Shown here one piece after another: positions 3,312 to 23,254 of a stretch of DNA of 26,748 bases. Both the position numbers and the translations under genes were made by a program. This DNA comes from a virus. The stretch covers positions 1 to 26,748 of IMG/VR virus record IMGVR_UViG_3300035670_001087; one strand, written 5' to 3'. Each line of letters opens with the position of its first letter. Within the stretch, counting starts at the first letter, position 1. The notes under the pieces were generated by a model that did no database searches, was not told where the DNA came from, and saw only the letters and a list, made by a program, of their open reading frames with translations.

Positions 3312-3461
3312 ATGCCAACCATCGTATTACGCGGCCTCGACCCGGCACTGGTCGCGGCCGTCAAGGCCGAAGCCGACCGGCGCGGCCTGTCACTGCGAGC
3401 GATGACGATCGAACTACTGCGTGCCGGGCTGGTGCTGGCCGCGCGCGAGGGGAGGGCGTGA
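3312..3461 (+). CDS. Ribbon-helix-helix (CopG/Arc/FitA-like) DNA-binding protein
   Basis: This 49-residue protein has the shape of a ribbon-helix-helix repressor: a short strand (TIVLRGLD, residues 3-10), a first helix (PALVAAVKAEADRRG), and a second helix (SLRAMTIELLRAGLVLA). Such proteins bind DNA as dimers through the strand, and often repress their own operon. FitA-like antitoxins share the pattern, but the next gene is not a PIN-domain toxin, so a toxin-antitoxin pair is not supported. It lies in the operon downstream of operator-like repeats at 2919-2974, so autoregulation is a reasonable guess. Confidence 0.7.
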   Translation: MPTIVLRGLDPALVAAVKAEADRRGLSLRAMTIELLRAGLVLAAREGRA

Positions 3462-9421: not shown

Positions 9422-9654
9422 GCGACGCCTATACCAGGCTGCGGGCATATGCGGACGACCTGCAGGCCCGATTCGTCGCGCAGGCTGCATGGAAGGCGCG
9501 CCATCCTGACTGGCAGACGATGGACGACGAGACATGGGAGCAGGTCGAGAATGCGGATCCGTTTCCACGCACCGATGATGTCGTGACGGCCGCGCGGTTT
9601 CTGGACGTGCTGGCGGTGGGACTGGCCGCATACGAGCGAGGGGTGACGCGATGA
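9418..9654 (+). CDS. Small acidic helical protein of unknown function (78 aa)
   Basis: A 78-residue protein, mostly helical, with tryptophans in the middle (WKARHPDWQTMDDETWEQ) and an acidic stretch. It begins and ends with ATGA overlaps. No motif is recognised. Its place in a row of short coupled genes is typical of early accessory regions of phages. Confidence 0.6.
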   Translation: MSDAYTRLRAYADDLQARFVAQAAWKARHPDWQTMDDETWEQVENADPFPRTDDVVTAARFLDVLAVGLAAYERGVTR

Positions 9655-9890: not shown

Positions 9891-10204
9891 CCCGCGACGA
9901 GCAGCGGCTGGCGTGGCGTGTCTATTCGGCTGGGGCGCTGTCAACGATTCGCAATGCGGAACTCACGCATGGCGATATCCAGAGCATTGAGGACGTGGCC
10001 GACCGGCTGTTGAAGGCCGAGCAGCAGCGCTTCGACGGGCCAGACCATTCTGCTGACGCCAGCAAAATGGTCGAGCCGCGTGAGTGGGTTGATCTGACTG
10101 AGGCAGAAATTAGGCAGATAGTAGCGACATGGTACCCGACTCAAGCCGAACTGGTGCGGTTCACGCAAGACCTGCTCCGTGAAAAGAACGGGGGGACGCG
10201 ATGA
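9887..10204 (+). CDS. Phage accessory protein with WxxLTEAEI motif (105 aa)
   Basis: A soluble 105-residue protein. Its C-terminal half carries EWVDLTEAEIRQI followed by ELVRFTQDLLREKN, a pattern I have seen at the ends of many short phage proteins (W..LT..EI then a LLREKN tail). The N-terminal half is a separate helical segment. The shared tail is probably a small helical module of unknown binding partner. It overlaps its neighbours by 4 bases. Confidence 0.6.
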   Translation: MTRDEQRLAWRVYSAGALSTIRNAELTHGDIQSIEDVADRLLKAEQQRFDGPDHSADASKMVEPREWVDLTEAEIRQIVATWYPTQAELVRFTQDLLREKNGGTR

Positions 10205-10518
10205 GCGCACACACGCCGGGGCCGTGGGAAGTCAAACCAGCCAGAGCGCGTGCAAGGAAAGGATGGGCCGTCGTCGCAAACGATGGCATGACGCCCGTGG
10301 CGGGCGCATGGCACCGTGCAGACGCACAGGCCATTTCCGCGACTCTTGATTTACTGGCCGTCGTCGAAGAAGCCATCCGGCTGTACGGCAAACCGGGCGG
10401 GCCGTGGAACATGCCGAGCGATCCGGGCGGGTGGATCGCACGAGCACAGGACGCGGTGGCGAAGGCGCGAGGCACCATGTCGAGCGCAGGCTCGAAAAGG
10501 TCGGAGGGGGAGCGATGA
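10201..10518 (+). CDS. TPGPW-type phage protein, copy 1 (105 aa)
   Basis: The protein opens with the TPGPW motif (HTPGPWE, residues 4-10) and has a helical segment DAQAISATLDLLAVVEEAI and a PGGWIARAQDAVAKARGT segment. The first and second segments are typical of a widespread family of short phage proteins of unknown function. The next gene has the same three blocks in the same order, so the two are tandem paralogues. Start and stop overlap neighbours by 4 bases. Confidence 0.7.
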   Translation: MSAHTPGPWEVKPARARARKGWAVVANDGMTPVAGAWHRADAQAISATLDLLAVVEEAIRLYGKPGGPWNMPSDPGGWIARAQDAVAKARGTMSSAGSKRSEGER

Positions 10519-10871
10519 GCGACAAGAAGCCGAACACGCCGGGGCCGTGGTGGTGGATTGAGCAGAACGGGGAACACCTCGTAATCGATCGGCAGCGGGT
10601 CATTGTGGATCTCAAGCAGCATACGGGGCCGACAAACTCGCACAGGGAAGAGGATGCCATCAACGCGCCACTGATTGCCGCTGCACCAGTCATGCTGGCC
10701 GCACTGGAACAGGCCATCGCGGAAGCGTGTGCGGCGCATGGAGGCTATCCGCACAACACGCCAGAAAATCGCCCTGGTGGATGGCTGTGGGAAGCGCGGG
10801 CGGCGGTGGCGCAGGCGCGATCCACGGTTCCCACGAAATATTGGGAGCTGGTGGCGTTGGGCGTGCTGTGA
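10515..10871 (+). CDS. TPGPW-type phage protein, copy 2 (118 aa)
   Basis: This is the paralogue of the preceding gene: TPGPW at residues 8-12, then DAINAPLIAAAPVMLAALEQ, a version of the common phage signature in which LIAAAP precedes a leucine-rich helix, and near the C-terminus PGGWLWEARAAVAQARST. The start at ATG 10515 follows GGAGGGGG and overlaps the previous stop. Its stop is followed by the first 20-bp repeat array. The family's function is not known. Confidence 0.7.
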   Translation: MSDKKPNTPGPWWWIEQNGEHLVIDRQRVIVDLKQHTGPTNSHREEDAINAPLIAAAPVMLAALEQAIAEACAAHGGYPHNTPENRPGGWLWEARAAVAQARSTVPTKYWELVALGVL

Positions 10872-10963
10872 CCGCCATCGGCGCAACAATTCGGCGCTCG
10901 ACGCAACAATCACCGCCTCTGCGCAGGAATGACGCGCTCGGCGCAAGAATGGAGGACAGATGA
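10868..10963 (+). CDS. Possible 31-aa peptide encoded across the 20-bp repeats
   Basis: A GTG at 10868 overlaps the previous stop and the frame ends at TGA 10961-10963, overlapping the next ATG, so both junctions match the style of this genome. The product is basic (RRSTQQ and LRRNDALG). It covers the whole repeat array. In the second array (11755-11814) a comparable frame from ATG 11743 runs on into the zinc-ribbon gene instead of stopping. The repeats have a 20-bp period, so gain or loss of a unit changes the frame, which argues that the DNA rather than the peptide is conserved. Confidence 0.3.
   Translation: MTAIGATIRRSTQQSPPLRRNDALGARMEDR
10881..10959 (+). repeat. Array of four 20-bp tandem repeats (copy 1)
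   Basis: Units begin at 10881, 10901, 10921 and 10941, each with a core like GCGCAACAAT (variants ACGCAACAAT, GCGCAGGAAT, GCGCAAGAAT) followed by a 10-base part that is usually like GACGCGCTCG. The last unit ends in the Shine-Dalgarno GGAGGACA of the gene at 10960. The period of 20 is exact across the four units. Confidence 0.8.
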
Positions 10964-11166
10964 CGGAGCAGGGCATACAGCGACGGATTGACGCGGCTGT
11001 GCAGGCCGAGCGCGACCGGATTCTCGCGTGCATCGATGATGAACTCAACGCGGTCGGCGAATGCCTCGAGAGGACAGACGAGGTCAAGGCCGGGCTGCGG
11101 ATGGCGCGTCGAATCGTGCGTGATGGCAAGCGCAAGGGCTTGGTGCAGATACGGGGGTGGCGCTAA
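10960..11166 (+). CDS. Small ERxRI-family helical protein (68 aa)
   Basis: The 68-residue protein carries AERDRILACIDDELNA (residues about 16-31), the same module (ERARI followed by a helix) seen in the proteins encoded at 11815, 12251 and 12459. The rest is a basic helix (RMARRIVRDGKRKG). It is preceded by the first 20-bp repeat array and the GGAGGACA SD. Function is unknown; a helical oligomerisation or nucleic-acid-binding role is possible. Confidence 0.6.
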   Translation: MTEQGIQRRIDAAVQAERDRILACIDDELNAVGECLERTDEVKAGLRMARRIVRDGKRKGLVQIRGWR

Positions 11167-11501
11167 TGTCCGTGGCACGGGAGCAACGATGGCGGCAGCG
11201 CCTAGAGGCCGAAAGCAACGCGATCACACGCCAGCAGCGCGAAGCCGAGGTTGCCGAGCGCGTGAGGAGGTTCGGCGTCGTGACACGACCAGCGCCTCCG
11301 CCGCCGTCACCGACGCGAGCGGATCGCTGCGCCGTGCGGCGATGGATGCGGCTGCACGCCGATGAGCACGAGGGCGCGACGGCGCTGGCTGAAGCGGCAA
11401 GCCTGGCGTTTGACCTGCCGGAAGACTGGCTGGACGACCCCACGCATTGGGTGTGGGACATGGCCGCAGAGGAGACAGAGGCGCGAGGGGGTGAGCGATG
11501 A
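11166..11501 (+). CDS. Small basic/proline-rich protein of unknown function (111 aa)
   Basis: From ATG 11166, in a TAATG junction with the previous gene, the product is 111 residues. Its N-terminal half is strongly basic and helical (REQRWRQRLEAES and on), then comes a proline stretch (APPPPSP), then an acidic C-terminal domain with tryptophans (DWLDDPTHWVWD). A GTG at 11157 is an alternative start. No family is recognised. Confidence 0.55.
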   Translation: MSVAREQRWRQRLEAESNAITRQQREAEVAERVRRFGVVTRPAPPPPSPTRADRCAVRRWMRLHADEHEGATALAEAASLAFDLPEDWLDDPTHWVWDMAAEETEARGGER

Positions 11502-11746
11502 CACAGGTCATGGCGGTGCCTGATGTGCTCATCCTGCTCGTGGCACTGATTGGGCTGGGGATCACCGGATGGGTGTGGGCGGGCCTGCTATGGGTCTCGG
11601 TCAGGATCGCCCGTGGGGAGCATTACAGCATCGAGCCTGGGATGGCCTCGGCACTGTTCATTTTTTTGGTGGCGGCGATGTTCGGTGGCTGGTGGCTGTC
11701 TGCGGCCGTGCGGCTGTTGGCATGGGCGCAGGAGGTGGTGCGATGA
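11498..11746 (+). CDS. Small two-pass membrane protein (82 aa)
   Basis: Two strongly hydrophobic segments, residues about 9-35 and 49-76, flank a short polar loop (RIARGEHYSIEPG). Predicted inner-membrane protein. The start lies in the previous stop, and its own stop precedes the second 20-bp repeat array. It is one of several small membrane proteins in the region with no recognisable family. Confidence 0.6.
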   Translation: MTQVMAVPDVLILLVALIGLGITGWVWAGLLWVSVRIARGEHYSIEPGMASALFIFLVAAMFGGWWLSAAVRLLAWAQEVVR

Positions 11747-11754
11747 CGGCATCC

Positions 11755-11814
11755 GCGCAACAATGCGACGCTCGACGCAACAATGACGCGCTCGGCGCAA
11801 GAATGGAGGACACG
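11755..11814 (+). repeat. Array of three 20-bp tandem repeats (copy 2)
   Basis: Units begin at 11755 (GCGCAACAAT), 11775 (ACGCAACAAT) and 11795 (GCGCAAGAAT), with the same 20-base period and similar spacer halves as the array at 10881. The last 31 bases of array 1 before its gene (10928-10958) are identical to 11782-11812 here. Copy 2 looks like copy 1 with one unit removed. Confidence 0.8.
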
Positions 11815-12258
11815 ATGGCCCTGTGTGATTACCGGCTGTGCGACCGCTGCGGCGGCAAAGCCTTCTACGATGCGAATCTGAACTACGGCGACCCCGGCGC
11901 AACTCGTGTGCGCGGGCAGCACTACACGCTTGACTTTGTAGGCGACTGGGCGGTGCTGTGCCAGACGTGCGCGGAGAAATACGCAGTCGTGATTGTGACG
12001 CAACAACGCGGCGCGCCGAGGATCGAAGACGGCTGGCGACGGTGCGCGGTTGGCCAGCGCGAGACGCAGCACTGCGGGCTGGTCGAGGAGGCGCGGGCGC
12101 AGGAGCGGGCGCGGATTGTGGCGCTCATCCGCGAGCATATCGTGCTGTGGGAAAGGGGCAAGTGGGAGACTCGTGAATGGGCCGATATCTACGACGACGA
12201 CGATGTGGTCGCGCTGAAGCGGCTGCTGCGGCAGGTGGAGGACACGCGCCATGAGTGA
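11815..12258 (+). CDS. Zinc-ribbon protein with ERARI module (147 aa)
   Basis: From ATG 11815, 5 bases after GGAGG at 11805-11809, the product is 147 residues. The N-terminal part has LCDRCGGKAF near residues 8-17 and VLCQTCAEKY later, two CxxC pairs that should form a zinc ribbon. The C-terminal part has QERARIVALIREHIVLWE, the module shared with three neighbouring small genes, and an acidic run YDDDDV. An ATG at 11743 is in frame and overlaps the previous stop, which would add 24 residues translated from the 20-bp repeats; I prefer 11815 because of its SD. Function is unknown. Confidence 0.65.
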   Translation: MALCDYRLCDRCGGKAFYDANLNYGDPGATRVRGQHYTLDFVGDWAVLCQTCAEKYAVVIVTQQRGAPRIEDGWRRCAVGQRETQHCGLVEEARAQERARIVALIREHIVLWERGKWETREWADIYDDDDVVALKRLLRQVEDTRHE

Positions 12259-12466
12259 CAAAGACAAAACCCCTACACAATGCGCGACAGTGCAGGAGAA
12301 AGATTCGCCGTGCGCGGTGCGGGAGCGGGCGCGGATTCGGGCGTTGGTGCAAAACGAAATCGAGTACTGGCAGAGTGACTTTGTGCTGCGCCAGTTTTTT
12401 GGTCACATCGCCGGACTTCGACGAGCGCTGACCATGATCGATGCGGAGGACACGACCAATGAGTGA
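12251..12466 (+). CDS. Small ERARI-family protein (71 aa)
   Basis: A 71-residue protein with RERARIRALVQNEIEYWQ in its middle and IDAEDTTNE at its end. The last codons (GAG GAC AC) also form the Shine-Dalgarno of the next gene. The same arrangement is seen at the ends of the genes before and after it. It starts MSD, as do four other genes in this region (10515, 12459, 12772 and 13146). Probably a member of a local set of tandem paralogues; function unknown. Confidence 0.6.
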   Translation: MSDKDKTPTQCATVQEKDSPCAVRERARIRALVQNEIEYWQSDFVLRQFFGHIAGLRRALTMIDAEDTTNE

Positions 12467-12779
12467 CGAGAAACTGACGGCAACAGCGACGTTCCACTTG
12501 AACGACGGGACGGCGAGCAAGGAGATCGCCAGAATCGGGTCAGACGGCGTGTGGGTCAATCCTGACCTGCCAGTGGATGAGGCCGCGCGGAAGTTTCTCG
12601 ACATCGTGAACGACATGTGGGGGGCACACTTCACGAAGCCAGCCGTCGAGGCCGAACGGGCGAGGATTCGGGCAGAAGTGAAAGACCTGTTTGATCGGCC
12701 CAGTACGTTGTTTGGTAAGTGGGCAAAGATTGATAACGTGCTTTGGATCATCGACGGGGAGGACACACGCCATGAGTGA
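12459..12779 (+). CDS. ERARI-family protein with extra N-terminal domain (106 aa)
   Basis: The product has a short beta-rich N-terminal domain (residues about 5-45, including TATATFHLNDGT and DGVWVNPDLP), a helix, and AERARIRAEVKDLFDRP, then ends IDGEDTRHE. The C-terminal half matches the gene before it in layout and in the final residues, so it looks like a fusion of the shared module to a different N-terminal part. GGAGGA at 12445-12450 precedes the ATG. Function is unknown. Confidence 0.6.
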   Translation: MSDEKLTATATFHLNDGTASKEIARIGSDGVWVNPDLPVDEAARKFLDIVNDMWGAHFTKPAVEAERARIRAEVKDLFDRPSTLFGKWAKIDNVLWIIDGEDTRHE

Positions 12780-13149
12780 CGCACAGACCCGCCCGACCTT
12801 CGCCGATCGCTACGTCTACGCGGCCCGGTGTGTGCAGGTGATCGACGGCGATACGCTCGACCTCGACATCGACCTCGGCTTTCACGTCACGCTCAGGCAG
12901 CGCGTCCGGCTGCGCGGCATTGACACGCCGGAGCTGCGTGGGAAGGACAAAGACCGTGCCGTGGCTGCACGGACAGAGGTCACGATCTGGACGGATGGCG
13001 TCGAACTGCTCGTGCGGACGGAGCGTGACGCGACCGACAAGTATGGCCGGATGCTGGCTGACGTGTGGGTCGACGGGCTGGCGACCAGTCTGTCGGATCA
13101 TCTCGTCGGGCGCGGGCTGGCGCGGCGGTATGACGGGGGGCGGCGGTGA
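12772..13149 (+). CDS. Staphylococcal nuclease-like (thermonuclease) protein
   Basis: The 125-residue protein matches the SNase domain: DGDT at residues 25-28, RLRGIDTPE at 46-54 and DKYGRMLADVW at 89-99, which supply the calcium-binding acids, the catalytic glutamate and the two arginines. Such enzymes hydrolyse DNA and RNA to 3'-phosphate products. There is no signal peptide, so it should act inside the cell, perhaps in host DNA breakdown or nucleotide recycling. GGAGGACAC at 12758-12766 precedes the ATG, the same SD cassette used by the genes upstream. Confidence 0.85.
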   Translation: MSDAQTRPTFADRYVYAARCVQVIDGDTLDLDIDLGFHVTLRQRVRLRGIDTPELRGKDKDRAVAARTEVTIWTDGVELLVRTERDATDKYGRMLADVWVDGLATSLSDHLVGRGLARRYDGGRR

Positions 13150-13304
13150 GCGACACACGACCGACTCACGCCGACCTGATCGCCCAGCTGGTCGAGGCGC
13201 TGGCCGACCTGCTCCGAGAAGCCGAGGACGGGCACGCCGTCTGTGCCTACACGCGGTTCAAGGCCCGCGAAGCGCTGCGGGTGGCGAAGGAGGGGACGGC
13301 ATGA
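13146..13304 (+). CDS. Small helical protein (52 aa)
   Basis: A 52-residue frame from GTG 13146 to TGA 13302-13304, joined to both neighbours by 4-base overlaps. It is almost all helix with leucine spacing (ADLIAQLVEALADLLREAE) and a basic C-terminal half (TRFKAREALRVAKEG), suggesting a helical hairpin. It starts MSD like several genes in this region. No function is recognisable. Confidence 0.55.
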   Translation: MSDTRPTHADLIAQLVEALADLLREAEDGHAVCAYTRFKAREALRVAKEGTA

Positions 13305-13867
13305 CCAAACCGCTGTTCCGCATCTGCCGCGTCTGCCGCGAGCGTAAACCCGCGACCGACCGGCCGCTGTGCAAGTCGTGCGCGGCGCAGGTGCGATGGC
13401 ACAAGCGCGAGGCCGAGGAAGACCGCCAGCTGGCCGCGCGGCCCATTGTGGCCCCGCCGACGCCGACCGCCGAGCCGCCACGCGCGACCGGGCAGGCGCG
13501 GCCCTACCGGCGACCGTCCGAGACGCCAGCGCCACGGCCGTCGATGCGGGAGCCGGACGTCGACGGGCTGCCGGAGCCTGAGCGCGTCTACTCGCCGGAG
13601 GAACGGCTCGCCATGACCGTGTTCCATCAGGCCGTCACCGACCTGTCGATTACCCATGTGCAGCCACGCGACAAAGACGGGGCCGCCCTGTTCCTGCTCG
13701 GCCGGGAGCCGTATACCGACATTCACGCCTTCTGGTGCGCGGTGCTGCACCTCGACCCGCGCGGGGCCATCGAGGCGGTCCTGCTGAAGCACGGCACGCA
13801 GATTGCCCGCGTCCGGTCGTGGGCGGTGCGCGAGGCGCTGACGGGGCGCGGGAAGGGGCGGCGGTGA
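13301..13867 (+). CDS. Zinc-finger and proline-rich linker protein (188 aa)
   Basis: The N-terminal 30 residues form a small zinc finger (CRVCRERKP followed by CKSC), as in proteins that bind nucleic acid. A basic, proline-rich linker covers about residues 45-90 (for example PTPTAEPPRATGQARPYRR). The C-terminal 90 residues look like a folded helical domain (EERLAMTVFHQAVTDLS and AFWCAVLHLDPRGAIEAVLL). It ends just before the promoter and leader of the replication genes. No named family is recognised for the C-terminal domain. Confidence 0.6.
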   Translation: MTKPLFRICRVCRERKPATDRPLCKSCAAQVRWHKREAEEDRQLAARPIVAPPTPTAEPPRATGQARPYRRPSETPAPRPSMREPDVDGLPEPERVYSPEERLAMTVFHQAVTDLSITHVQPRDKDGAALFLLGREPYTDIHAFWCAVLHLDPRGAIEAVLLKHGTQIARVRSWAVREALTGRGKGRR

Positions 13868-13882
13868 GGTTGTCGGTTTATT

Positions 13883-13912
13883 GTGACAAGGCCGCCGTCG
13901 GGCCGATAGAAT
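13883..13912 (+). promoter_or_regulatory. Candidate promoter for the replication operon, with operator palindrome
   Basis: A GTGACA -35 (13883-13888) and a TAGAAT -10 (13907-13912, 5 of 6 matches) are 18 bases apart in a gene-free stretch. A palindrome GCCGAT-AGA-ATCGGC at 13902-13916 overlaps the -10, an ideal repressor site. The -35 also holds TGTGACA, the reverse complement of the TGTCACA core of the iterons in the next gene, so the initiator might control its own promoter. Confidence 0.55.
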
Positions 13913-13917
13913 CGGCT

Positions 13918-14000
13918 CGCGGCCAGGTATGTGGCCTGACCGCGAACCTAACAACCGGCTGGAGGCGCAGCGCGGATGCTGACGATAGTCTATCGCAGCA
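13918..14000 (+). promoter_or_regulatory. Two-hairpin leader of the replication operon
   Basis: At the predicted transcript start (about 13919) a 9-bp stem with one mismatch pairs 13918-13927 with 13935-13944 (CGCGG/CCGCG and CAGG/CCTG). A second stem pairs TGCTG and CGATA (13977-13987, one bulged A) with TATCG and CAGCA (13991-14000) around a GTC loop. The strong SD AGGAGG at 14015-14020 follows. The layout resembles leader RNAs used for antitermination or translation control. Confidence 0.5.
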
Positions 14001-14026: not shown

Positions 14027-15130
14027 GTGTATAACAAGCTCTTCACAAAGATTCTCGATTCGTCGATCTGGCTGCAGTCTGACCAGACCGTCCGCGTGTG
14101 GATTACCCTGCTGGCCGCGATGGATGAGGACGGCTTGACGCCGTTTGCCACGGTCGCCAACCTTGCGAACAGGTCGCATGTCAGCCTTGAGGCCACACGC
14201 GCGGCCGTCGCCTACCTCGAAGGCCCGGACGAGTGCAGCGGCAACCCGGCGAATGACGGCCGACGCATTGAACGGGTCGACGGCGGCTGGCTGGTGCTGA
14301 ATGCGGCCGCCCATCGCGAGATGGTGACCCGGTCGGAAATCAAGCGGCGGCAGCGCGAACGGGCGCAGGCATCACGCGATCGCAAGCGTCACAGCGAGCC
14401 TGTGACCGATGCGTTACAGATCGAGCAGTGTCACAGCTGTCACAGCAAAACGGCCATGTGTCACAGCAAAACGGGGGTGTGTCACAGGAAAACGGGCACC
14501 TGTCACAGCAAAACGGCGATCTGTCACGCATCTGTCACGGAATCAGAAGCAGTAGCAGTATCAGAAGCAGAAGCAGTAGCAACAGCAGAGAGATCAGTAC
14601 TTGCTCGGTCATCCGACCATGCCGAGACCGGTGGATCGCCTACCGGCGATCGCAAGTATGAGGAGGCCTTTAGGGCGTTCTGGGCCGTCTACCCACGCAA
14701 GACGGCCAAAGCCACAGCCGCCAAGGCCTACGCGGCCTTACGGCCATCGGCCGACCTGCAGGCGGTCATCCTTGCGGCCGTGCGGCAGCAGGCGGCCAGT
14801 CACGACTGGCAGAAGGACGGCGGGCGGTTCGTGCCACACGCGGCGACCTACCTTCGCGGTCGACGATGGGAGGACGTGCCGGTCGGCATGGTGCCCGCGT
14901 CGACGGCCAGCGCCAACCCGTCGGCCCCGGTCGAGTCGGCCGAGGACCGCGAACATCGACTGCTGCAGGAGCGCACGCAGGTCTACATCGCGGAACAGAA
15001 ACGGCTCGAGGCCGAGACGAAGGCCTGGCGGGAAAGCCCGGACTACGTGCCCCTGCGCGAGCTGTTCCGGCGTCAGCGTGAGGCGCAGGGCCTGCCGCCG
15101 CTGGCCTTTCTTGATGAGGCGAAGCCATGA
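14027..15130 (+). CDS. Phage replication initiator (lambda O-like)
   Basis: The 367-residue protein starts at GTG 14027 after the SD AGGAGG (14015-14020). The N-terminal 100 residues are a winged-helix-like domain (YNKLFTKILDSSIWLQ, then LANRSHVSLEATRAAVAYL) as in phage replisome organisers. A basic linker follows, then a heptad-like run of CHSKT repeats at about 138-166, encoded by the iterons, and an acidic-alanine stretch. The C-terminal part (FWAVYPRKTAKATAAKAY then GGRFVPHAATYLRGRRWEDVP) is the module common at the end of such initiators, thought to contact helicase or loader. The next gene is the DnaB-type helicase. The assignment by layout is strong; DNA binding to the iterons is inferred. 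Confidence 0.8.
   Translation: MYNKLFTKILDSSIWLQSDQTVRVWITLLAAMDEDGLTPFATVANLANRSHVSLEATRAAVAYLEGPDECSGNPANDGRRIERVDGGWLVLNAAAHREMVTRSEIKRRQRERAQASRDRKRHSEPVTDALQIEQCHSCHSKTAMCHSKTGVCHRKTGTCHSKTAICHASVTESEAVAVSEAEAVATAERSVLARSSDHAETGGSPTGDRKYEEAFRAFWAVYPRKTAKATAAKAYAALRPSADLQAVILAAVRQQAASHDWQKDGGRFVPHAATYLRGRRWEDVPVGMVPASTASANPSAPVESAEDREHRLLQERTQVYIAEQKRLEAETKAWRESPDYVPLRELFRRQREAQGLPPLAFLDEAKP
14388..14600 (+). other. Probable replication origin: iterons plus AT-rich purine-skewed segment
   Basis: TGTCAC occurs at 14429, 14438, 14459, 14480, 14501, 14522 and 14533; the five from 14438 to 14522 are exactly 21 bases apart, two helical turns, with a conserved extension like AGCAAAACGG. Upstream GTCACAG (14388-14394) faces CTGTGAC (14400-14406). 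Immediately downstream, 14540-14600 is lower in GC and purine-rich on the + strand with repeats of CAGAAGCAG and CAGTAGCA, as expected of an unwinding element. Iterons inside the initiator gene followed by such a segment are the plan of the lambda origin. Confidence 0.75.
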
Positions 15131-19596: not shown

Positions 19597-19788
19597 ATGC
19601 AGTGGATCACGATGCACGAGGCGGCTGAGCTGGCGCGCGTCACGACACGCACCATTCGCAATTGGATTGACAAGGGCGCGGTGCAGGCGGTGAAGGCGAG
19701 CCCGGCGGCGAGGCGTGTGCTGGTGCGTCGCAGCGATGTCGACCCGCAGCAACGCGCGGAAACGAGCCGCAACAGCGGCACCATCTGA
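19597..19788 (+). CDS. Excisionase/MerR-like helix-turn-helix protein (63 aa)
   Basis: The 63-residue product is a compact HTH of the excisionase family: MHEAAELARVTTRTIRNWIDKG (helix-turn-helix, residues 6-27, written here with one break: MHEAAELARVT and TRTIRNWIDKG) and then a wing VQAVKASPAARRVLVRRSDVD. GAGGAGG at 19586-19592 gives a strong SD. Such proteins bind DNA to control recombination or transcription. Its place between terminase and portal is unusual; a 28-base imperfect palindrome lies right after it at 19801-19828 and could be its target. Confidence 0.7.
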   Translation: MQWITMHEAAELARVTTRTIRNWIDKGAVQAVKASPAARRVLVRRSDVDPQQRAETSRNSGTI

Positions 19789-22060: not shown

Positions 22061-23254
22061 ATGGAGAACATCAAGTCAGTGCTCGACGCTCAGGCGGCCG
22101 CGTTCGAGGCCCTCAAGACCGCGAACGAAGCCCGCCTGAAGGCGATCGAGGAAAAGGCTGGTCAGGGTGACCACCTCGCCAAGATTGAGAAGATCAACGC
22201 CGACCTCGACCAGCTGGCCGACCGGCTGAAGTCGACCGAAGCGGCCCTGAGCCGGTCGGCCGTGGCCCCGGTTGCGGCGGGTGCCGACGAGCAGAAGGCG
22301 GCGTTCGGTCAGTGGCTGCGTCGCGGCGATCGGGCGATCGACGCCGTCAAGGGCATGCGCGTCAGCGACAACGAGAACGGCGGCTATCTGGTGCCGGAGT
22401 CGGTCGCTGGGCCGCTGATTCAGCGCCTGTTCGACGGTTCGCCGATGCGCCAGGTGGCGCGCATTGAGACGATTACTGGCAATGCCTTCGAGGGCGTGGT
22501 CAGCTACGGTCAGCTGGAAGTCGAGTGGCTGGACGAAGTCTCGGCCAGCAGCGACCCGACCACGCCGACTCTGAAGAAGTATCGTATCGAGGTCAACAAC
22601 CAGCGGTCGAGCCCGCGCATCGGGCCGAATATGCTGGAAGACGGCGCGGTCAATGTCGAACAGTGGCTGCAGAATGCGGCCGCGCGCGACTTCGCGCTGT
22701 CGGAGCAGACCGCATTCATCATCGGGTCTGGCGTCGGCCGTCCGCGTGGCATCACGACCTACACCACGGCCGCGACTGCTGACAGTTCGCGCGCCTGGGG
22801 CCAGCTGGAGCACGTCGCCACGGGCACGTCGGGCGGCTTCGGCTCCAACGCCAACGGCACCGACAAGCTCATCGAGCTCACCGGCAAGCTGAAGAGCGGC
22901 TACCGCGCGGGCGCGGTGTGGATGATGTCGAAGGCCACGCTCGCGTCGACCCGCGTGCTGAAGACCAGCGGCGGCGACTACATCTGGCAGCCGTCGACGC
23001 AGGCCGGCAATCCGTCGGTGCTCCTCGGCTATCCCGTCGTGGAAGCCGAAGACATGCCCACCATCGGCGCCGACTCGCTGTCGATTGCCTTCGGCAACTT
23101 CGGCAACGGCTACATGGTGGTCGACCGTCTCGGGCTGTCGGTGCTGCGCGATCCGTTCAGCAACAACCCCTACATCACGTTCCACACGACCCGGCGTGTC
23201 GGTGGCGGCGTGGTCGACTTCGACGCCATCAAGTTCCTGAAGTTCTCGGCCTAG
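22061..23254 (+). CDS. Major capsid protein (HK97 fold)
   Basis: The 397-residue protein has a coiled-coil N-terminal delta domain (residues about 1-70, rich in A, K and E), a linker, and the HK97 capsid core beginning near ENGGYLVPESVAGPLIQRL and running to VGGGVVDFDAIKFLKFSA. The N-terminal part would act as internal scaffold and be removed by the protease encoded just before. AGGAGAG at 22048-22054 lies 6 bases upstream of ATG 22061. Length and layout are normal for the family. No crosslinking lysine-asparagine pair can be assigned by eye. Confidence 0.92.
   Translation: MENIKSVLDAQAAAFEALKTANEARLKAIEEKAGQGDHLAKIEKINADLDQLADRLKSTEAALSRSAVAPVAAGADEQKAAFGQWLRRGDRAIDAVKGMRVSDNENGGYLVPESVAGPLIQRLFDGSPMRQVARIETITGNAFEGVVSYGQLEVEWLDEVSASSDPTTPTLKKYRIEVNNQRSSPRIGPNMLEDGAVNVEQWLQNAAARDFALSEQTAFIIGSGVGRPRGITTYTTAATADSSRAWGQLEHVATGTSGGFGSNANGTDKLIELTGKLKSGYRAGAVWMMSKATLASTRVLKTSGGDYIWQPSTQAGNPSVLLGYPVVEAEDMPTIGADSLSIAFGNFGNGYMVVDRLGLSVLRDPFSNNPYITFHTTRRVGGGVVDFDAIKFLKFSA

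Follow-up and report, generated by a model that had tools for sequence, protein, structure and literature searches.

How can a phage operon in which most genes overlap the next hold stretches of tandemly repeated DNA between its genes, and what would such repeats do there? The DNA studied, referred to here as the window, is the whole of a 26,748-bp virus record from IMG/VR. Between positions 9651 and 13304, it carries 12 small co-directional genes, and 9 of the 11 junctions between them overlap by 1 to 8 nucleotides (nt). The sole two gaps in this run, of 88 nt (array A) and 68 nt (array B), consist throughout of tandem repeats with a 20-bp unit. We give about an even chance to the reading that the arrays are an intercistronic repeat cassette, similar in kind to the mycobacterial interspersed repetitive units (MIRU), which was inserted at a stop/start junction and carries a mini-open reading frame (mini-ORF) that preserves translational coupling. 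The features of the locus are as follows.

10868 to 10958, plus strand: array A overall, 20-bp tandem repeats, with full units from 10881
10868 to 10880, plus strand: head of array A, where a start codon overlaps the stop of gene 10515-10871 (GTGA), followed by the partial unit GTGACCGCCATCG
10868 to 10963, plus strand: candidate bridging mini-ORF of array A, VTAIGATIRRSTQQSPPLRRNDALGARMEDR-stop, with 4-nt overlaps at both ends
10881 to 10958, plus strand: full units of array A, four with the core GCGCAACAAT at 20-nt spacing, the final one continuing into GGAGGACA
10928 to 10958, plus strand: array A copy of the 31-nt identical stretch (equal to 11782-11812)
10960 to 11166, plus strand: downstream gene 1, 68 amino acids (aa), no assigned function; its homologue in a second phage (G018) has no array
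11743 to 11812, plus strand: array B overall, 20-bp tandem repeats, with full units from 11755
11743 to 11754, plus strand: head of array B, an ATGA overlap with the end of gene 11498-11746, with AGGAGGT before it and the partial unit ATGACGGCATCC after it
11743 to 11814, plus strand: predicted in-frame reading of array B, 24 codons (MTASAQQCDARRNNDALGARMEDT) open into gene 11815
11755 to 11812, plus strand: full units of array B, three with the core GCGCAACAAT at 20-nt spacing, the final one continuing into GGAGGACA
11782 to 11812, plus strand: array B copy of the 31-nt identical stretch (equal to 10928-10958)
11815 to 12258, plus strand: downstream gene 2, 147 aa; its N-terminal domain matches phrog_19621, a family without assigned function

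Both arrays have a period of 20 according to TRF. At this period, array B matches itself at 29 of 40 positions (the shuffle maximum averages 22.7, with an extreme of 27), and array A, which alone is less extreme than B, at 26 of 40. The units begin exactly where an earlier, sequence-only reading of this DNA had placed them, at 10881, 10901, 10921, and 10941 in array A and at 11755, 11775, and 11795 in array B. Its account of how the arrays are related also holds: their last 31 nt are identical, and the second copy equals the first minus one unit, as is borne out by a comparison of unit halves, in which unit 2 of array B joins the first half of A unit 2 to the second half of A unit 3, a clean one-unit difference. 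No exact direct repeat in the window is longer than this 31-nt stretch; the corresponding value in dinucleotide shuffles has a mean of 15.8 and a maximum of 19. In each array, the partial leading unit begins at the upstream stop codon (GTGACCGCCATCG at 10868 and ATGACGGCATCC at 11743). Within the unit, the core CGCAA(C/G)AAT is the best-conserved part, which is common to the window and G018, and the second half is variable.

Both arrays end in the same Shine-Dalgarno (SD) sequence, GGAGGACA, as had been claimed, though this sequence also precedes three starts that have no array. It occurs exactly five times on the plus strand of the window, each time before a start (10960, 11815, 12251, 12459, and 12772), and at the three array-free starts (12251, 12459, and 12772) it lies within the last codons of the preceding gene (EDTRHE or EDTTNE plus stop). 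This SD is therefore a more widely start-associated sequence, and the array is an extra element placed upstream of it. Genes 10960, 11815, 12251, and 12459 (window 10960-12779) contain an (A)ER(A/D)RI module in common, with EDTRHE or EDTTNE as the C-terminal sequence in three of the four; judging from these shared segments, they appear to be a small local family of shuffled paralogues. By inspection, the N-terminal domain of gene 11815 is CxxC-type and zinc-ribbon-like. A search for relatives of gene 11166 found none.

Looking for the arrays in related phages, as the sequence-only reading had proposed, gave a divided outcome, with a three-unit cassette in G018 and none in G005. Searches with the terminase and exonuclease found near relatives, of which only G005 (33.6 kb, terminase 89% identical) covers the array region; it is the closest such relative, most of its small-gene region differs from that of the window, and it has few of the small genes. 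Separately, contigs of relatives L073, L074, L075, L076, and L077 all start approximately 690 to 730 bp ahead of the large terminase, which may point to a fixed end of the genome at about 17.3 kb in the window. A scan with a pattern permitting any second half of 9 to 13 nt brought up a second carrier, one phage represented by three contigs (G016 to G018) that are 100% identical, and its cassette reads ATGACTCC GCGCAACAAT GACCGCATCG GCGCAACAAT TAGACCCTAC GCGCAACACC GGAGACGACG ATG. Array B aligns with it end to end, from GCGATGAC to ACGATG (Smith-Waterman score of 54; shuffle maximum of 40, n = 1000), and array A aligns over TGACCGC(C)ATCGGCGCAACAATT (score of 46; shuffle maximum of 27), with the head of array A aligning with TGACCGCATCGGCGCAACAATT of G018. 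Bar one inserted base, approximately 22 consecutive nt are common to the cassettes of the two phages. The window thus holds two copies, of four and three units, and G018 one copy of three. None of 84,980 prokaryote species genomes contains the array pattern, BLAST of window positions 10000-14000 against phages gave no match, and short array queries against phages and plasmids gave weak, chance-level matches only. Matches to the exact pattern in viral contigs lay within coding DNA and were judged to be chance. The carriers found are two phages, with only one independent relative.

The sequence-only reading had called the arrays interchangeable leaders for different genes, and the comparison with other phages bears this out. 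In G018, the cassette stands before a 74-aa gene unrelated to 10960 or 11815, and the two phages clearly have only three small genes in common (58, 50, and 40% identity). All 60 homologues of gene 11815 in viral contigs start at Met 11815, and none has an array; for gene 10960, G018 encodes a homologue (40% identity over 57 aa) with the same start Met and a plain GGAGGACGCGATGAC leader. The arrays are therefore not a conserved part of either gene, and the idea that array B is an N-terminal coding part of gene 2 was dropped because the homologues begin at 11815. Across the two phages, one cassette thus precedes three genes that are unrelated to one another, and homologues of two of these genes lack it, which supports an interchangeable leader that is independent of the gene behind it.

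It had further been argued that a period of 20 nt, not being a multiple of 3, leaves selection on DNA or RNA only. This argument fails, as a frame is open through both arrays with coupled ends, and the period is therefore no proof that the arrays are untranslated. In array A, GTG at 10868 overlaps the upstream TGA and opens 31 codons, whose closing TGA overlaps the ATG of gene 10960. In array B, the ATG at 11743 has the SD AGGAGGT and overlaps the TGA of the gene before it; its frame continues into gene 11815. In G018, an ATG with the SD GGAGGGACGCG opens 23 codons ending in a TGA that overlaps the next ATG. The head-start frame is open in all three arrays, with the 3' end at -4 in A and G018 and in frame in B. 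The distance separating the head start from the final ATGGAGGACA measures 81 nt for array A and 60 nt for array B; one 20-nt unit and a 1-nt change in the head make up this difference of 7 codons.

As evidence for translation, the open frames are suggestive only. The consensus unit would place a TGA in one of three phases, array frames are still open 67 to 76% of the time in dinucleotide shuffles, and permuting the observed units leaves all three arrays open in 20% of permutations, so openness is not counted as proof by itself. A chance phase match contributes about one-third per array, and A and B, being related, are not independent. GC content by codon position gave no clear coding signal in the arrays, and the array peptides are not conserved in register. 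As a baseline from a crude gene caller, the window, G005, and G018 have approximately 32 gaps of 25 to 150 nt, and in only 3 of these is a mini-ORF coupled both to the gene before it and to the gene after it; they are array A and one gap each in G018 and G005. The gap in G005 (L155/L156, reverse complement 28160-28231) holds a mini-ORF of 23 codons that overlaps each neighboring gene by 4 nt and is built of short GTTGCAATG-like repeats (MTGHVAMLAMVAMLNSKANGGPR-stop); it matches array A in layout and differs in its repeat. A further mini-ORF with coupling at its two ends lies in G018 (L345/L346, reverse complement 23143-23214); its sequence, MWAWLPRWLRWRLARIAIRRMMR, is very rich in Trp and Arg.

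On the MIRU-like reading, the cassette would enter where the stop codon of one gene overlaps the start codon of the next. At its 5' end, the cassette would supply or retain a start codon that overlaps the stop of the gene before it (GTGA or ATGA). Its 20-nt units are open in the head-start frame, and its 3' end offers the SD GGAGGACA, together with a 4-nt ATGA overlap with the next start in A and G018 or, in array B, a frame that continues into the gene behind it. A ribosome ending the upstream gene would restart, traverse the array, and reach the next gene, so that insertion or expansion of the cassette would leave the coupled operon unbroken, and the unit number could shift via slippage or unequal exchange between units. 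Translational coupling requires overlap, and a spacing of approximately 20 nt nearly abolishes it (PMC10666635); in an operon whose genes all overlap, an insert of 68 to 88 nt would uncouple them if ribosomes did not traverse it. When the sequences on either side of the cassette are joined at the two start codons, ordinary SD-start sites result (AGGAGGTGGTGCG/ATGGCC for B and GGAGGGACGCG/ATGACC for G018), as expected if entry was at the start codon; the empty-site join for B would delete the upstream gene's stop. From this layout, we infer that the mini-ORF is translated and delivers ribosomes to the next gene and that the cassette is mobile and was inserted here rather than lost elsewhere; neither an empty-site allele of A or B nor movement was seen directly among the relatives examined. 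Counting against the MIRU-like reading, the 3' end of array B is a fusion and not a -4 coupling, the SD that closes the array could initiate the next gene with no need for coupling, and the nucleotide core is better conserved across phages than a constraint on openness alone would need.

A more elaborate version, which we consider distinctly improbable, is that a phage element inserting at start codons forms a chain of self-coupled mini-ORFs that would relay ribosomes from gene to gene. Placed head to tail, the consensus unit ATGACCGCATCGGCGCAACA reads MTASAQQ-stop, and each stop overlaps the next ATG by 4 nt, a unit of 20 nt corresponding to 8 codons less that overlap. Of the units actually present, B1 (MRRSTQQ-stop) is the only one with the exact self-coupled form. 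If true, such a chain would let phages swap genes with operon translation intact.

The claim that no described element has this form was too strong, since MIRU have the same layout (PMC12548453), the rnc-fpg repeats of Mycobacterium tuberculosis are another case (PMC2734929), and the SAS and ESAS sequences of mycobacteriophages are also start-associated (PMC3203893). As PMC12548453 and PMC4213456 describe them after Supply et al. 1997, MIRU are direct tandem repeats placed at a start codon between operon genes, whose internal ORF overlaps the downstream gene by 4 nt and is coupled to it; they vary in copy number and occupy several sites per genome. They insert at start codons in tuberculosis bacteria and let ribosomes continue from one gene into the next. 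The units of senX3-regX3 are 77 and 53 bp, and the unit size is 40 to 100 bp overall (PMC2734929). Our arrays are likewise tandem direct repeats between co-directional operon genes, and an ORF with a 4-nt downstream overlap is found in array A and G018, whereas B is fused in frame instead. The unit of 20 bp lies outside the MIRU range, the arrays here are in phages, and the likeness is one of layout. The cassette would work like a MIRU, but on these grounds we do not file it as one. At rnc-fpg (VNTR3239/ETR-F), complex direct repeats end at the next start codon, most relatives have a gap of just a few bp there, and array length correlates with downstream mRNA level, longer arrays being associated with more mRNA (PMC2734929). 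The likeness is a junction of a few bp filled with repeats up to the start codon; the differences are a bacterial chromosome, a region of 279 to 358 bp, and repeats that are not known to be translated. In Cluster K mycobacteriophages, repeats that include the SD core lie directly upstream of small nonstructural genes of different families, SAS as a single 13-bp GGGATAGGAGCCC and ESAS as 17-bp inverted repeats (PMC3203893, PMC12699233). Our arrays also lie directly upstream of nonstructural gene starts, and GGAGGACA is similarly start-associated. However, the leader in the window is GGAGGACA with direct repeats and not GGGATAGGAGCCC, and neither SAS nor ESAS combines direct units in tandem with an open frame. 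The gene-boundary sequences of the lambdoid nin region are short homologous sequences around the intergenic ribosome-binding site that are usable for gene exchange; they differ in not being tandem repeats. Searches of an open-access library turned up no phage element of the form seen here.

It seems unlikely that the units are instead binding sites for a phage DNA-binding protein that modulates transcription entering or traversing the next gene, as has been suggested for ESAS, with a 20-bp spacing of about two helical turns setting bound copies side by side on one face. Such an array would fit the conserved 10-nt core in both phages, the noncoding CGCAACAAT pairs at 20 to 21 bp in other phage contigs (such as L296, L297, L267, L271, and L289), and the FitA-like ribbon-helix-helix protein encoded in the window at 3312-3461. 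However, the gene for this protein is present also in array-free G005, the sites of the other phages resemble a different motif ((A/G)TTAC or TTGCG-flanked), the second half-unit is variable, and the arrays lie within a run of overlapping genes; no promoter-like site was found in 10000-13000, on which ground an internal promoter was also dropped. It is likewise doubtful that the arrays are nonfunctional, i.e., an accidental gene-boundary duplication expanded by slippage, copied once by intragenomic recombination, and tolerated with the SD intact. That B is A minus one unit with a 31-nt identical end fits slippage with recent copying or conversion, the different short repeat in a comparable gap of G005 indicates that repeats arise there repeatedly, and the lack of RNA structure was counted on the same side. 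Against slippage stand a homologous cassette, with approximately 22 nt in common, in another phage (no more than 40 to 58% identity between matching proteins), a position that is always stop-to-start, and three arrays that are all frame-open. An untranslated cis-acting RNA leader (a repeat-tuned enhancer or structured regulator) acting on the SD would fit an array ending in an SD, and leader B, when folded together with its start region, forms less structure than its shuffled versions (z = 2.66; 199 of 200 shuffles fold as well or better), a property that would favor an accessible ribosome-binding site. We nevertheless hold this to be very unlikely, as array A has no such folding bias (z = 0.59 and -0.76) and the predicted folds of A and B have no hairpin in common. 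Folding against shuffles gave no excess structure (z from -0.76 to 2.66) and no hairpin excess, and an Rfam search of the arrays gave no match; an RNA structure or Rfam family was dropped on these results. Replication iterons or a partition site are the least credible reading, one we all but dismiss: two clusters of 20-bp direct repeats and a replication initiator at 14027-15130 would favor it, and the spacing fits, but no initiator gene adjoins the arrays, no adjacent AT-rich tract was noted, the arrays sit at two gene starts and are absent from G005, and a better origin candidate is a 21-bp repeat within the initiator gene.

Several other sequences came up alongside these comparisons. The origin candidate consists of four to five 21-bp direct repeats (TGTCACAGCAAAACGGC) at 14437-14527, in frame as CHSKT(A/G) in the replication-initiation-like gene, and by analogy with lambda O, these are candidate origin repeats inside an initiator gene. 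Pairs or triples of CGCAACAAT at 20 to 22 bp, in L296, L297, L267, L271, L289, L322, and L290, lie mostly outside long genes, and some adjoin promoter-like sequence or lie near a helix-turn-helix (HTH)-like gene; they are possibly repressor operators or element ends. On reading, they were judged different from the cassette, as were the GACGCAA repeats of L238 (reverse complement 14451-14690), which alternate in spacing between 10 and 12 bp and flank an apparent tRNA gene on either side. The FitA-like protein has no adjacent toxin noted and is 73% identical in G005. A 63-aa HTH_17/MerR-like protein encoded at 19597-19788, between the large terminase and portal genes, is kept in near relatives.

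If the MIRU-like reading is right, start-codon repeats of this kind occur in phages too, beyond mycobacterial chromosomes, and gapless phage operons can take up new DNA at their junctions with coupling kept. The arrays of three and four units form a natural series for asking whether ribosomes cross them, and a cassette that is independent of the gene behind it would be a testable case for the exchange of small phage genes.
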